From: Pantoea septica
Lineage (GTDB): Bacteria > Pseudomonadota > Gammaproteobacteria > Enterobacterales > Enterobacteriaceae
Assembly: GCF_002095575.1 (NCBI RefSeq)
Contig: NZ_MLJJ01000002.1
Span: 62,001-126,000, forward strand
DNA: 64,000 bases
Direction of reading: 5' to 3'
Position numbers and translations under genes: made by a program. The notes below the pieces were generated by a model. The model saw only the letters and a list, made by a program, of their open reading frames with translations, was not told where the DNA came from and did not search any database. Positions 4,994 to 9,057 of this stretch are shown in pieces. Numbering within the stretch: position 1 is the stretch's first letter; each line of letters opens with the position of its first letter.

Positions 4994-6295
4994 ATGGATT
5001 CACATGCTGCCCATCGCCTGAAAAGGCAGGATTACAAAACGCTGTCGCTGGCCGCGCTCGGCGGCGCGCTGGAGTTCTACGACTTTATCATTTTCGTCTT
5101 TTTCGCCGCGGTTATCGGCGAGCTCTTCTTCCCGCCTGATATCCCTGACTGGCTGCGCCAGCTGCAAACTTTTGCGATTTTCGCCGCCGGCTATCTGGCG
5201 CGCCCGCTCGGCGGCCTGATCATGGCGCATTTCGGCGACAAGGTGGGTCGCAAAAAAATGTTCAGCCTGAGCATCCTGCTGATGGCGCTGCCGACGCTGG
5301 CGATGGGCGTGCTGCCCACCTACGATACGGCGGGCATCGTCGCGCCGCTGCTGATGCTGCTGCTACGCCTGTTACAGGGCGCGGCGATTGGCGGCGAAGT
5401 GCCGGGGGCCTGGGTGTTTGTGGCGGAGCATGTGCCTGAAAAGCGCATCGGTTTCGCCTGCGGCACCCTGACCGCCGGGCTCACGGCAGGGATCCTGCTG
5501 GGATCGCTAGTCGCAACCGCCATCAACAGCAGCATGACGCCGCAGACGGTCGCCAGCATCGGCTGGCGCATTCCCTTCTTCCTTGGCGGGGTATTCGGGC
5601 TGCTGGCGATGTATCTACGCCGCTGGCTACATGAGACGCCGGTTTTTCAGCAGATGCAGCAGCGCAAAGCGCTGGCCGATACGCTGCCGTTAAAAACCGT
5701 GCTGACCCAACACAAAAGCGGCGTGCTGCTCTCTATGCTGCTGACCTGGCTGCTCTCCGCCTGTATCGTGATAGTGATTTTAATGGCGCCTGCGCTGATG
5801 CAAAAGCAACACGCTATTAGCGCCGCATTGAGTTTGCAGGCTAACTGTCTGGCGACGGTGATGCTGCTGGCAGGCTGCGTTATCGCTGGCTGGCTGGTGG
5901 ACTGGATCGGGGCGGCGAAAACCCTGATGGGCGGATCGCTGCTGCTGGCCGTTTGCAGCTGGCACTTTTTCGCCAGCCAGACGCCGGACGCTGACGGACT
6001 CTTCTTTAATTACGGGCTGGCGGGGCTAAGCGTCGGCGTAGTCGGCGTAGTGCCCTCTTTGATGGTGCGCGCCTTTCCGGCGGCGGTGCGCTTTACCGGC
6101 ATCTCTTTCTCCTACAATGTCGCCTACGCCATTTTCGGCGGGCTAACGCCCATCTTCGTGACGCTGATCCTGCGCCTGACGCCGCTGGCGCCTGCCTGGT
6201 ACGTGCTGGCGCTGGCGCTGGTCGGATTGCTGATCGGGGTGTGGCTTTATAGTGTCGAACGGCAGGGTGCGCTGGCGAGTGACACGCGCCTGTAG
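4994..6295 (+). CDS. MFS transporter, metabolite:H+ symporter (MHS/ProP-like) family
   Basis: Inner-membrane transporter of the major facilitator superfamily. The 433-residue product has about twelve hydrophobic segments and the MFS loop 2-3 motif GLIMAHFGDKVGRKK (about residues 75-89). The stretch RLLQGAAIGGEVPGAWVF followed by an amphipathic EKRIGF loop is typical of the MHS branch that includes ProP, KgtP and ShiA, which import organic acids or osmolytes with protons. The substrate cannot be read from the sequence. The Shine-Dalgarno (SD) site before the ATG is weak (CTGGAA), and I see no terminator after the gene; its stop is 19 bp from the stop of the convergent permease gene. It replaces the satP/yaaH region of E. 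coli and is an accessory insertion relative to it. Confidence 0.88.
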   Translation: MDSHAAHRLKRQDYKTLSLAALGGALEFYDFIIFVFFAAVIGELFFPPDIPDWLRQLQTFAIFAAGYLARPLGGLIMAHFGDKVGRKKMFSLSILLMALPTLAMGVLPTYDTAGIVAPLLMLLLRLLQGAAIGGEVPGAWVFVAEHVPEKRIGFACGTLTAGLTAGILLGSLVATAINSSMTPQTVASIGWRIPFFLGGVFGLLAMYLRRWLHETPVFQQMQQRKALADTLPLKTVLTQHKSGVLLSMLLTWLLSACIVIVILMAPALMQKQHAISAALSLQANCLATVMLLAGCVIAGWLVDWIGAAKTLMGGSLLLAVCSWHFFASQTPDADGLFFNYGLAGLSVGVVGVVPSLMVRAFPAAVRFTGISFSYNVAYAIFGGLTPIFVTLILRLTPLAPAWYVLALALVGLLIGVWLYSVERQGALASDTRL

Positions 6296-6314
6296 CCAGG
6301 CGCGTCAGGAGGGA

Positions 6315-7613
6315 TTAGTCGACCGCAGCCGCTTTCGGCGTAGCCGCAGCGCGCTTCATCAGCGGCGCGGTAAGCAGGTAAACAAGGCAGGCGACGATAA
6401 TCGAGTTAAAAACCGGCACCCCTTGCTCAACCAGCAGTCCGGTGGCGCTGCCTGCCACGCTGGCGATCAGCGCAGGCCAGCCGATAAGCCGAGACGTCGC
6501 CGGCAGCGTGTTGCTGCCGCGGCTTTGCGCCAGCGTCTGGCGATCGGTCTTCAGCAGATAGTAATCCACAATCATCACGCCCAGCACCGGCGGGAAGATC
6601 ACGCCCAGCAACTCCAGAAAATCGACGAAGCGATCCAGAATGCCCAGCACCGAGCAGAGCGTGCCGAGAAAACCCAGCAGCAGGGTGATGACGCTGTAGC
6701 GCGGCTTAAAGCCGGTCAGCCCTTCCGTGGCGTTGGCGATGCCTAGCGCGGAGGAGTATAGGTTGAGGTCGTTGATGCGTAGGGTCGAAAAAACCACCGC
6801 GAACAGCCCCAGCGTGCTGGTCGTCTGGGTAATGATGGCGATGATGTCAGACGTATGCAGCTCTTTCGCAATCAAAATGGCCAGTCCGTTAACGCCATAC
6901 TCGCCTGCCAGAATGGTCAGCATCGTAATGGCGAAAACGTCTTTGCCGCTGCGTGAGAAGCGCGTCAGATCCGGCGTCATCAGGCTGGCGAGAATGGCGC
7001 CGCCGATCACCATGGTAATGGCGGCGCTCACGGTAATGGCCTCTGTGGTCGCAACCGGCGGAATAGTGCTGCCCGTCTGCCCGTGAAACGCGTGCCAGAA
7101 GATCCAGCCGACCAGCGCGATAAACAGCGGAACCGCCACGCGCGCGGTAAAGCGCAGCGCCTTAAAGCCAAAAGCCACCAGCAACGTCAGCACCGCGCCC
7201 GATAAGGAGGCGGACTGCGCGAAGCTCAGCTTGCCGTCCAAAGCGTAGCTCAGCGACCGGGCGAAAACTGCATTCTGAATGCCAAACCAGCCCAGCAGGC
7301 TGACGGCGACCAGCAGGCCGATCAGAACCGAACCGTGGCGGCCGAAGCCGCACCAGCGCGCCAGCAGGCTGCCCGACAGACCTTCGCGCATCCCGGCGTA
7401 GCCGAGCGCGAAAGTCAGCAAGCCAAACAGCAGGCTCGCCAGGGTAATGGCGGTAAAGGCTTCGCCGAGCGTCATGCTGTTGCCGAGCACGGCGCCGAGC
7501 ATAAACTGATCGAGCGCGGTCAGCATGCCCATATGCACGATAGCGACGCTAAGCAGCGAGAGCCTTTCGCCCGCAGGCACCCGGCTCAACGGGTAGTCAT
7601 CAAATTTACTCAC
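6315..7613 (-). CDS. NCS1-family permease, cytosine-permease (CodB)-like
   Basis: Polytopic inner-membrane permease of the nucleobase:cation symporter-1 family. The 432-residue product has about twelve hydrophobic segments and resembles CodB in pattern: an N-terminal membrane block ending in the loop GYAGMREGLSGSLLARW, then LGWFGIQNAVFA, then TPDLTRFSR and NDLNLYSSALGIANA, and a late IFPPVLGVMIVDYYLL. These match the positions of substrate- and cation-binding helices in CodB/Mhp1-type proteins, but the substrate (cytosine, another nucleobase or a related heterocycle) is not determined. The start codon is GTG at 7613 with AAGGAA upstream. It follows the LuxR-type regulator by 20 bp, so the two are likely cotranscribed, with the regulator first. 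Confidence 0.85.
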   Translation of the reverse strand: MSKFDDYPLSRVPAGERLSLLSVAIVHMGMLTALDQFMLGAVLGNSMTLGEAFTAITLASLLFGLLTFALGYAGMREGLSGSLLARWCGFGRHGSVLIGLLVAVSLLGWFGIQNAVFARSLSYALDGKLSFAQSASLSGAVLTLLVAFGFKALRFTARVAVPLFIALVGWIFWHAFHGQTGSTIPPVATTEAITVSAAITMVIGGAILASLMTPDLTRFSRSGKDVFAITMLTILAGEYGVNGLAILIAKELHTSDIIAIITQTTSTLGLFAVVFSTLRINDLNLYSSALGIANATEGLTGFKPRYSVITLLLGFLGTLCSVLGILDRFVDFLELLGVIFPPVLGVMIVDYYLLKTDRQTLAQSRGSNTLPATSRLIGWPALIASVAGSATGLLVEQGVPVFNSIIVACLVYLLTAPLMKRAAATPKAAAVD

Positions 7614-7633
7614 AACAGGTATTCCTTGCCGGT

Positions 7634-8323
7634 TTAAATAAAAGAGACGCCTTTGCTGAGCAGCTTCTCTGGCAGATAGTTCTCCAGCGACTCAGCACGG
7701 CAGTACTGCTCGAACTGCTGCAGCGAATGCACGCCCGCTTTTTGATAGAGGGAGGCGATGCGATTGCCGATGGTTTTCACGCTAAGGTTGTAAATCCGCG
7801 CGATCTCTTTGGCGCTGAATCGCCTGAGCAGCAGAAAAATCACGTCCAGTTCGGCGGGCGTAAACAGAGGGTGTTCAAGCTGAGTGTTCAGCACTGAGCT
7901 CTTTTGCGGATGAATAAAAGTCAGCGCGGTAATATTTTCTACCGGACGCGCGTTCCAGATACAGCCCAGGAAAACGTTACGGCTATCAAAGACCGGATAT
8001 TTTTCGCTGATAAAAGGGGTGAGATAGTTTTTCCCATACCAGTAATGCGTTTCTATAACGGCAACGCACGCTTTCAGCGTCCTGGTTTTTTCGTCGTGCT
8101 CGCAAAACTCATCGGCGCAATCGCTCCAGAACGTGGGAAACTCATTATCTTTTTTACCCTCTAAAGAATAGTTTTTAGGCGTAGCGGTATATAAGCGCGC
8201 CGCGCTATTCATATAGAGATGTTGTGATGCCGCGTCTTTAAAACCCCATGGCGTAGGTAATAGATCCATGGTGGTAGCAAAGGCGGCAAGAAAATCGTCG
8301 ATACTGCGATATGGGCTGCCCAT
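7634..8323 (-). CDS. PAS-like sensor/LuxR-type HTH transcriptional regulator
   Basis: A 229-residue predicted cytosolic transcription factor. The first ~150 residues look like a PAS-type sensory region (DLLPTPWGFKDAASQHLYMN, a PAS opening with a conserved W/F-K-D). The C-terminal third is a LuxR/GerE-type helix-turn-helix, LFTPAELDVIFLLLRRFSAKEIA followed by LSVKTIGNRIASLYQKAG, with the usual ...V.T..N....Y.K pattern. There is no receiver aspartate domain and no autoinducer-domain signature that I recognise. It lies 24 bp after the GNAT gene and 20 bp before the NCS1 permease on the same strand, suggesting it controls this small operon, possibly in response to the permease substrate. That function is inferred only from context. 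Confidence 0.85.
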   Translation of the reverse strand: MGSPYRSIDDFLAAFATTMDLLPTPWGFKDAASQHLYMNSAARLYTATPKNYSLEGKKDNEFPTFWSDCADEFCEHDEKTRTLKACVAVIETHYWYGKNYLTPFISEKYPVFDSRNVFLGCIWNARPVENITALTFIHPQKSSVLNTQLEHPLFTPAELDVIFLLLRRFSAKEIARIYNLSVKTIGNRIASLYQKAGVHSLQQFEQYCRAESLENYLPEKLLSKGVSFI

Positions 8324-8347
8324 AGCGCCTCGCTGATTAGATGCGGA

Positions 8348-8758
8348 TTATAATCTTTTTGCCAGATAATAACGGGCAAAGCGCTGCGCGTAGCCATCCT
8401 GTTCGCCGTAGACGCGATAACCAAGCTTCTCGTAGAAGCCGCGCGCCTGAAAGCTTAAGGTATCCACCACCGCCATATGGCAGCCGCGACGGCGCGCTTC
8501 CTCTTCGGCTTTCTGCATCAGCGCGCGTCCGGTGCCGTGCTTGCGATGCGCCTCGTCAATCCATAAATAGTGAATATCCAGCGTGCCGAACCAGGTGTGC
8601 GCCAGCAGCCCGCCCTGAATATGCTGTTCATCGTCATACAATATAACGTTGAGCGGTTGCATATTAACGTCAGCGAAGCGGCTATTGTGCTGCCAGAGCT
8701 GTTGAATAATATATTCTTCAGTCTGACGATCCTCAATATGGCCTATCTTTATTTCCAT
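8348..8758 (-). CDS. GNAT-family N-acetyltransferase
   Basis: A 136-residue single-domain acetyltransferase of the Gcn5-related family. The acetyl-CoA pyrophosphate-binding motif A is visible as IDEAHRKHGTGRALMQKAEEEA (motif R/Q-x2-G-x-G/A is HRKHGTGRAL, about residues 71-80), followed by a motif B region with SFQARGFYEKLGYRVYGE, the usual A-x-x-F-Y-x-x-x-G-Y signature. The acceptor substrate is unknown. Its ATG at 8758 has only a poor SD. It is the promoter-proximal gene of a probable three-gene minus-strand operon with the PAS/LuxR regulator and the NCS1 permease. Confidence 0.87.
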   Translation of the reverse strand: MEIKIGHIEDRQTEEYIIQQLWQHNSRFADVNMQPLNVILYDDEQHIQGGLLAHTWFGTLDIHYLWIDEAHRKHGTGRALMQKAEEEARRRGCHMAVVDTLSFQARGFYEKLGYRVYGEQDGYAQRFARYYLAKRL

Positions 8759-8821: not shown

Positions 8822-9057
8822 CCATTATTACCATGAGCTTCGGTCGGACGCAAGAGATAATATACCCCCTGTGATTTAAGCCCCTTAATATTATGATAGG
8901 GCCAGTTATTTGATGACTATGGCAACGCGATTCTTCGCCGACATCAGGGAAAAGTGAAAACAAGTTAGTTTTGCAATAATAACGATAATATATTTCTTCG
9001 GCTTCTTCGCTGGGCCGAACGCTTCACACCGCACTGAATCAACATGCCGTTCAACAG

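Follow-up and report, generated by a model that had tools for sequence, protein, structure and literature searches.

We analysed a 64,000-nucleotide stretch of the 4.3 Mb genome of Pantoea septica, a plant-associated bacterium (assembly GCF_002095575.1, contig NZ_MLJJ01000002.1, positions 62,001 to 126,000; hereafter the window). The work centred on three adjacent minus-strand genes, here called the trio, which encode a GNAT acetyltransferase, a regulator with a PAS domain and a LuxR-type helix-turn-helix (HTH), and a permease of the NCS1 fold. The trio converges on the gene of an MHS-type MFS transporter; mog lies upstream of the MHS gene and dnaK on the other side of the block (Table 1). All four open reading frames (ORFs) are intact. 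The coordinates agree with a first-pass annotation of this DNA, which had described three minus-strand genes with gaps of 24 nt (regulator/GNAT) and 20 nt (permease/regulator), converging 19 nt from the MHS gene. The closest named relative found for the locus is that of Pantoea piersonii, with a regulator 95% and a DnaK 99.5% identical.

Table 1. Genes and candidate control elements at the trio locus (window coordinates).
Feature	Position	Strand	Remarks
MHS-type MFS transporter	4994..6295	+	resident neighbour, outside the trio
Inverted repeat, perfect 9-bp, over the MHS stop codon	6284..6305		between the converging genes
NCS1-fold permease, own subfamily	6315..7613	-	432 aa, GTG start; PF02133
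PAS + LuxR-type HTH regulator, VqmA-like	7634..8323	-	229 aa; GerE HTH
GNAT acetyltransferase, first gene of the trio	8348..8758	-	136 aa; PF00583
Candidate promoter	8825..8853	-	-35 TTGCGT at 8848-8853, 17 nt, -10 TAATAA at 8825-8830
Candidate operator, degenerate copy of the family palindrome	8850..8871	-	GG-N9-CT here, GG-N9-CC in the family

Domain searches placed the permease in the NCS1 family (PF02133, 69.3 bits; gathering score 23.5) and the acetyltransferase in Acetyltransf_1 (57 bits, cut-off 20.7). The regulator matched the GerE HTH with 27.9 bits (cut-off 23.5); its PAS part stayed below the Pfam threshold, and the predicted fold supports PAS.

A three-gene unit conserved across genera

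To score linkage we counted places rather than genomes. The window itself was left out. So were the short loci L038-L065, repeat loci (L096, L115, L116, L121) and copies that were broken or short, with L037, L126 and L129 among these. Beside regulators of at least 40% identity (rounded), the permease lay directly downstream at 54 of 57 places and the GNAT gene upstream at 45. Beside regulators below 40%, a permease was found downstream at 1 of 21 places and a GNAT gene upstream at none. The three exceptions in the upper class were L094 and L127, with a permease on the opposite strand about 4 kb and 2.6 kb away, respectively, and L107, with no permease seen at the locus. Among the 28 short loci, all three genes were present in the short flanks of all except L055, L057 and L064, and in L059 and L051 the regulator or the permease was split.

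When named genomes were searched for the regulator, 12 loci were found, from Pantoea, Erwinia and a symbiont of Plautia stali. At 11 of these the trio was intact, with order and strand kept, gaps of 20-25 and 18-22 nt, and regulator identities of about 50-95%. In the twelfth, L037 from the type-B symbiont of Plautia stali, the GNAT, regulator, permease and MHS genes all appear broken; dnaK, dnaJ and talB of this symbiont nevertheless align over their full length. Among 392 genomes drawn from across the family, 106 gave a regulator match at E <= 0.001, distant matches included. We also compared the flanks of 48 loci (ORFs of at least 110 aa, 35% identity). All 48 had the regulator, 47 had the permease and 37 had the GNAT gene, and no other gene family recurred in more than 7 loci once antisense and out-of-frame readings of the trio were excluded.

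The trio is a real conserved unit across genera, with GNAT as its dispensable and least conserved member. The first-pass annotation had taken the three genes for one operon-like unit and would have dropped this had they not been conserved together; they are kept together across genera, with gaps of 18-25 nt. Two points weigh against the strength of this result. GNAT was missing upstream at 12 of the 57 places (a contig edge is reached at two of these), and the places counted are best matches with close relatives among them, hence non-independent.

The position of the trio varies among chromosomal sites and plasmids. All three genes are present on Erwinia amylovora pEU30, a Cedecea plasmid and a P. 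stewartii plasmid, and the regulator and permease only on plasmids of Sodalis praecaptivus and Pectobacterium. On a conjugative plasmid of Erwinia sp. QL-Z3 (L068) the module, with a broken permease, sits between traM and the tra pilus genes, which is about the spot that traJ occupies on F-type plasmids. The trio is apparently a mobile operon whose parts are known and whose combination we found undescribed: searches of an open-access collection, with most subscription journals outside its scope, for the pairing or for kin of VqmA (see below) yielded no prior description of it.

The regulator and its candidate operator

A single-sequence search of solved structures with the regulator ranked VqmA, the quorum-sensing receptor for DPO known from Vibrio cholerae and phage VP882, first (E ~3e-10). 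With a profile of 48 relatives, none but VqmA entries matched over the full length (E 3.8e-22 to 9.8e-21); 39 further matches were confined to the C-terminal part. The structural model, built from 45 sequences, had a mean pLDDT of 86.1, and Foldseek ranked VqmA chains in all of the first eight positions. In VIA the model matched 7dwm (Z 19.8, rmsd 5.1, 207 aligned) and 6ide (Z 17.2, rmsd 3.8, 200 aligned), followed after VqmA by single PAS domains with Z 13.9 and 13.5, the latter from a TraJ-type protein. As modelled, the regulator is a PAS domain and a LuxR-type HTH in one chain with the fold of VqmA, a kinship that goes beyond the first-pass annotation. That a TraJ-type PAS domain is among its fold neighbours may be set beside the location of the L068 module near the usual place of traJ.

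Several positions of VqmA are conserved in the regulators. W20, G21, K23, S27, N33, D53, D71, K101 (K108 of the window regulator) and P103 were kept in all 53 relatives, and D24, Y31 and H87 in 49, 51 and 47 of them. We take K101 and F99 to be residues of VqmA that touch its ligand DPO. The overall identity to VqmA is, by contrast, about 21-26%, and many residues common to both VqmA proteins are systematically replaced: F29, A32, M56, T60, F99 and F116 are H, M, F, W, S/C and W, respectively, in 53 of 53. This pattern fits a receptor of the VqmA build for a different, conserved ligand.

A tree of 77 rows placed the permease-linked regulators together in one clade of 53 (support 100/87). The clade comprised 47 permease-linked regulators and six others, four of which were permease-linked by a looser test; the labels used in the tree were too strict for overlapping ORFs, and the place count given above supersedes them. 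The two VqmA proteins formed a long separate branch outside this clade (midpoint rooting only), and they differ from the trio regulator also in that the latter shares an operon with a permease. L124 speaks against a clean match between clade and linkage, being permease-linked with 38% identity and placed on a very long branch just outside the clade.

The PAS4-LuxR solos of Photorhabdus and its relatives appear to have the same domain pair, of which GerE scored above and PAS_4 below its cut-off in the window regulator (PAS_4 E 0.088). They resemble the present family also in that distant relatives of the trio regulator stand in tandem arrays in some genomes; they differ in that regulators below 40% identity lack the permease at 20 of 21 places. 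In the Pantoea loci L008, L009, L010, L017 and L018, PAS-LuxR regulators that share only about 25-28% identity with the window regulator occur as tandem pairs, with no NCS1 permease within the 3.6 kb examined.

We then turned to the region upstream of the first gene. In many relatives this region carries a palindrome, in its best-defined form AAGGGTG-N5-CACCCTT followed by G, whose right half runs into the TTG of a -35 element, mostly 73-97 bp before the start codon. In 35 of 48 upstream regions it scored above the 99th percentile of shuffles; the matrix had been trained on these same regions. When groups were left out one at a time, 17 of the 28 members of the largest group still reached <= 1/100 shuffles, the starting seed having come from that group. 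We repeated the test at the same threshold with seeds from outside, the 28-member group being absent from both seeding and training. Seeds from L068 (plasmid), L112, L091 and L028 (Pantoea) recovered 10, 15, 2 and 1 sites in that group unrefined, and 21, 20, 9 and 6 after refinement. A matrix-free test found dyads touching the TTG in 16 of 48 regions, against a shuffled mean of 3.2 and a maximum of 9 in 100 rounds. By eye, the half-sites covary (GGGTG/CACCC, GGGCG/CGCCC, TGGGG/CCCCA). The GG-N9-CC core of the relatives has the spacing of phage VqmA at Pqtip, V. cholerae VqmA having GG-N6-CC (both from the relevant part of PMC8284805).

Other results weigh on the opposite side. Only 2 of 15 left-out groups had a member at <= 1/100 shuffles, and the Pantoea seed was the poorest on the large group (1/28 unrefined, 6/28 refined). 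Dyads of any kind were not in excess, occurring in 24/48 regions where shuffling gave a mean of 20.2. Three of the 16 TTG-touching dyads (L084, L090, L099) differ from the family motif. The window's own copy, placed relative to the start codon and the -35 like the family motif, was not significant alone, with 58 of 100 shuffles scoring at least as well and no dyad found.

The candidate promoter of the window was read from the sequence, and its -35 overlaps the candidate operator. A sigma-70 scan listed no promoter at 8825-8853 and three elsewhere, against 2.1 expected by chance; a promoter passed over by such a scan would fit a weak -35 that requires an activator. The operator pattern of the window has a single exact match in its own genome, which fits a dedicated local regulator. 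A wider regulon was rejected, as the three genomic sites with 3 mismatches all fall within coding frames or right where these begin (control pattern 0). The first-pass annotation had the regulator controlling uptake. Control of the trio by its own regulator is made more likely by the palindrome over the -35 in many relatives, and the weak copy in the window tempers this.

The permease, the acetyltransferase and a proposed sense-and-import module

The nearest solved protein to the permease is CodB (profile E 8.3e-45, 7qoa), with Mhp1 far weaker (2jln, E 8.8e-08 by profile). Against the CodB equivalog NF008241 the permease scored 197.9 bits, below the cut-off of 326. In CodB, mutation of Gln105 or Trp108 greatly lowered cytosine transport (relevant part of PMC9379551). 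We compared 60 permeases of the family, including near-duplicates and a few that do not adjoin a regulator. The stacking tryptophan W108 of CodB was kept as W109 in all 60 and N280 was kept in the family; Q105 was L106 in all 60, and the second aromatic, F204, was A, C or S in 57 and Y or H in 3. With the equivalog score below cut-off and Gln105 lost, we rejected 'cytosine permease' as a name. The label 'CodB-like' given in the first-pass annotation holds for fold and Pfam family, though not for the cytosine glutamine or the two sodium-site threonines, which are gone in 60 of 60.

The substrate contacts of Mhp1 are Trp117, Gln121, Asn318 and Gly219 (relevant part of PMC4195764). In the register of the HMMER profile, Mhp1 W117, Q121, G219 and N318 correspond to W109, Q113, G205 and N284, of which W109, Q113 and N284 were kept in 60 of 60 permeases and G205 in 59, so that Mhp1-like binding is predicted; L106 and N281 were likewise invariant. 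Among the differences from Mhp1 (2jln, 4d1a), W220 is not kept and S312 and T313 are R and I in the window permease. At the Na2 site all 60 permeases had R or K at position 279 and V or I at position 280, opposite T278/T279 of CodB and S312/T313 of Mhp1. In this register the Ser/Thr side chains on transmembrane helix 8 found in sodium-coupled NCS1 carriers are thus absent; against this, MAFFT leaves a gap where HMMER aligns 279/280. From these residues, the permease may recognise a lactam ring as Mhp1 does, perhaps without sodium coupling.

The closest solved relatives of the GNAT protein by sequence were 1y9w and 2g3a. Its model (pLDDT 91.8) matched both with Z 18.2, above a plateau from 13.9 down that included nourseothricin acetyltransferase (Z 13.5) and a putative streptothricin acetyltransferase (Z 13.1). 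Neither 1y9w nor 2g3a has a substrate named in its title.

We propose, with moderate confidence, that the trio is a self-regulating module that senses and imports a small lactam-like ring compound. The regulator would be a one-component receptor of the VqmA build, whose PAS domain binds a small intracellular molecule and whose LuxR-type HTH binds the palindrome over the -35 of its own operon and acts as an activator. The permease would import this ligand or a closely related compound. It would hold a flat ring that bears a lactam as Mhp1 holds hydantoin, but would lack the sodium site present in CodB and Mhp1. GNAT, the optional member, would acetylate the imported compound or an amine derived from it, and would thereby either terminate the signal or initiate its use. 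If true, this would explain why a PAS-LuxR regulator adjoins a permease. At 54 of 57 places a receptor of the VqmA build is tied to a transporter, and the module would offer one promoter, one receptor and one carrier for compound screening; it also points to NCS1 carriers that may operate without a sodium site.

Other readings of the trio have to be weighed against this one. It might be an ordinary salvage operon, in which a common nucleobase, or a nutrient related to one, enters through the permease to supply nitrogen, the regulator senses this substrate and GNAT is incidental. The NCS1 fold with its PF02133 match agrees with this, as does the importance of the equivalents of the kept Mhp1 contacts in one fungal purine-cytosine carrier and one plant nucleobase carrier (relevant part of PMC4195764). 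However, no catabolic gene recurs beside the trio in the 48 flanks and the cytosine-transport glutamine of CodB is absent from all 60 permeases, and we consider salvage unlikely. Slightly less credit goes to antimetabolite handling, in which competitors make a toxic heterocycle that the trio takes up or pumps out; the regulator would sense this poison and GNAT would inactivate it. Plasmid carriage would suit such a role, and the structural neighbours of GNAT include antibiotic-modifying enzymes, yet these are level with many unrelated GNATs, the two nearest solved relatives have titles without a substrate, and being the least conserved gene (45/57) would be odd for a resistance determinant.

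Kinship to VqmA in sequence and fold raises the question of whether the regulator is a true DPO receptor, a VqmA outside Vibrio through which the operon listens to DPO from its own cell or its neighbours. K108, the equivalent of VqmA K101, is present in 53 of 53 relatives, and tdh of the window genome scores above its family cut-off. However, F99 is S/C, F29 is H, A32 is M and F116 is W, each in 53 of 53, and VqmA stands on its long separate branch. We also compared the occurrence of tdh, scoring at most 22 candidates per genome. Of 48 genomes with a clade regulator, 37 had tdh, as did 29 of 32 without such a regulator, which shows no link, and DPO self-sensing backed by tdh was rejected. The 48 genomes include G178 and G218, with no permease adjoining the regulator, and G408, with a broken permease. 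DPO is possible as the ligand, though not favoured, and a true DPO receptor seems to us improbable. More improbable still is that the regulator responds to a compound from plants or insects for which the permease is a private entry. Some carriers of related regulators live in association with plants or insects, and the Photorhabdus authors propose host signals for PAS4-LuxR solos while stating in the same source that these signals are unknown (relevant part of PMC4235431). The permease-less distant relatives (20/21) argue that host sensing would not need a permease.

A more specific form of the sense-and-import module, which we regard as quite doubtful, would make it an Lsr-like system of Enterobacterales for pyrazinone-class signals, which plasmids would spread from one species to another. 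In it a VqmA-type receptor would have an importer of its own, and GNAT would clear either the signal or its open-chain amine precursor. The Lsr system of E. coli senses, imports and processes AI-2 by means of an ABC importer and a kinase. The two would share the logic of regulator, importer and modifying enzyme; this is an analogy, and no homology is claimed. Pyrazinones such as DPO have a cis-lactam edge that the kept Gln and Asn of the Mhp1 type could grip. N-alanyl-aminoacetone has likewise been reported to bind and activate VqmA (relevant part of PMC12930378), and its free amine could be capped by GNAT.

The MHS neighbour and the genomic surroundings

The first-pass annotation had placed the MHS transporter in one accessory cassette with the trio, a claim that our comparison did not support. 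Its protein matches MFS_1 (94.1 bits, cut-off 33.4); the best NCBIfam model, TIGR00883 'metabolite/H+ symporter', gave 294.3 bits, under the cut-off of 443.45. The MHS gene was detected in 57 of 60 Pantoea genomes. Among the 30 best-scoring MHS loci (the other 27 lower-scoring Pantoea being outside the comparison), 25 had the order mog-MHS-dnaK with no trio detected and 5 had the trio between MHS and dnaK. The MHS transporter was rejected as a member of the unit on these counts. By this comparison, the trio at mog-MHS-dnaK was gained by one subgroup or lost by the rest. In P. agglomerans HJS002 and P. gossypiicola (L029, L030) it is located away from mog, MHS and dnaK.

According to the first-pass annotation, E. 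coli has unrelated genes at this site. A blastn-sensitivity search of a 20,395-record E. coli collection gave no match to the trio DNA, on which carriage of the trio by E. coli was rejected; the E. coli mog-dnaK interval itself lay outside this check. The inverted repeat between the converging genes does not appear in the terminator listing of the window.

Four NCS1 matches of the permease family per genome were observed in G128, G163, G205 and G384, some of them, by coordinates, near distant regulators and some not. The MHS-dnaK interval was about 0.9 kb in the Pantoea loci L146-L150, L154, L156, L157, L159, L161-L163, L165 and L166, and about 0.2-0.3 kb in the remaining loci compared.

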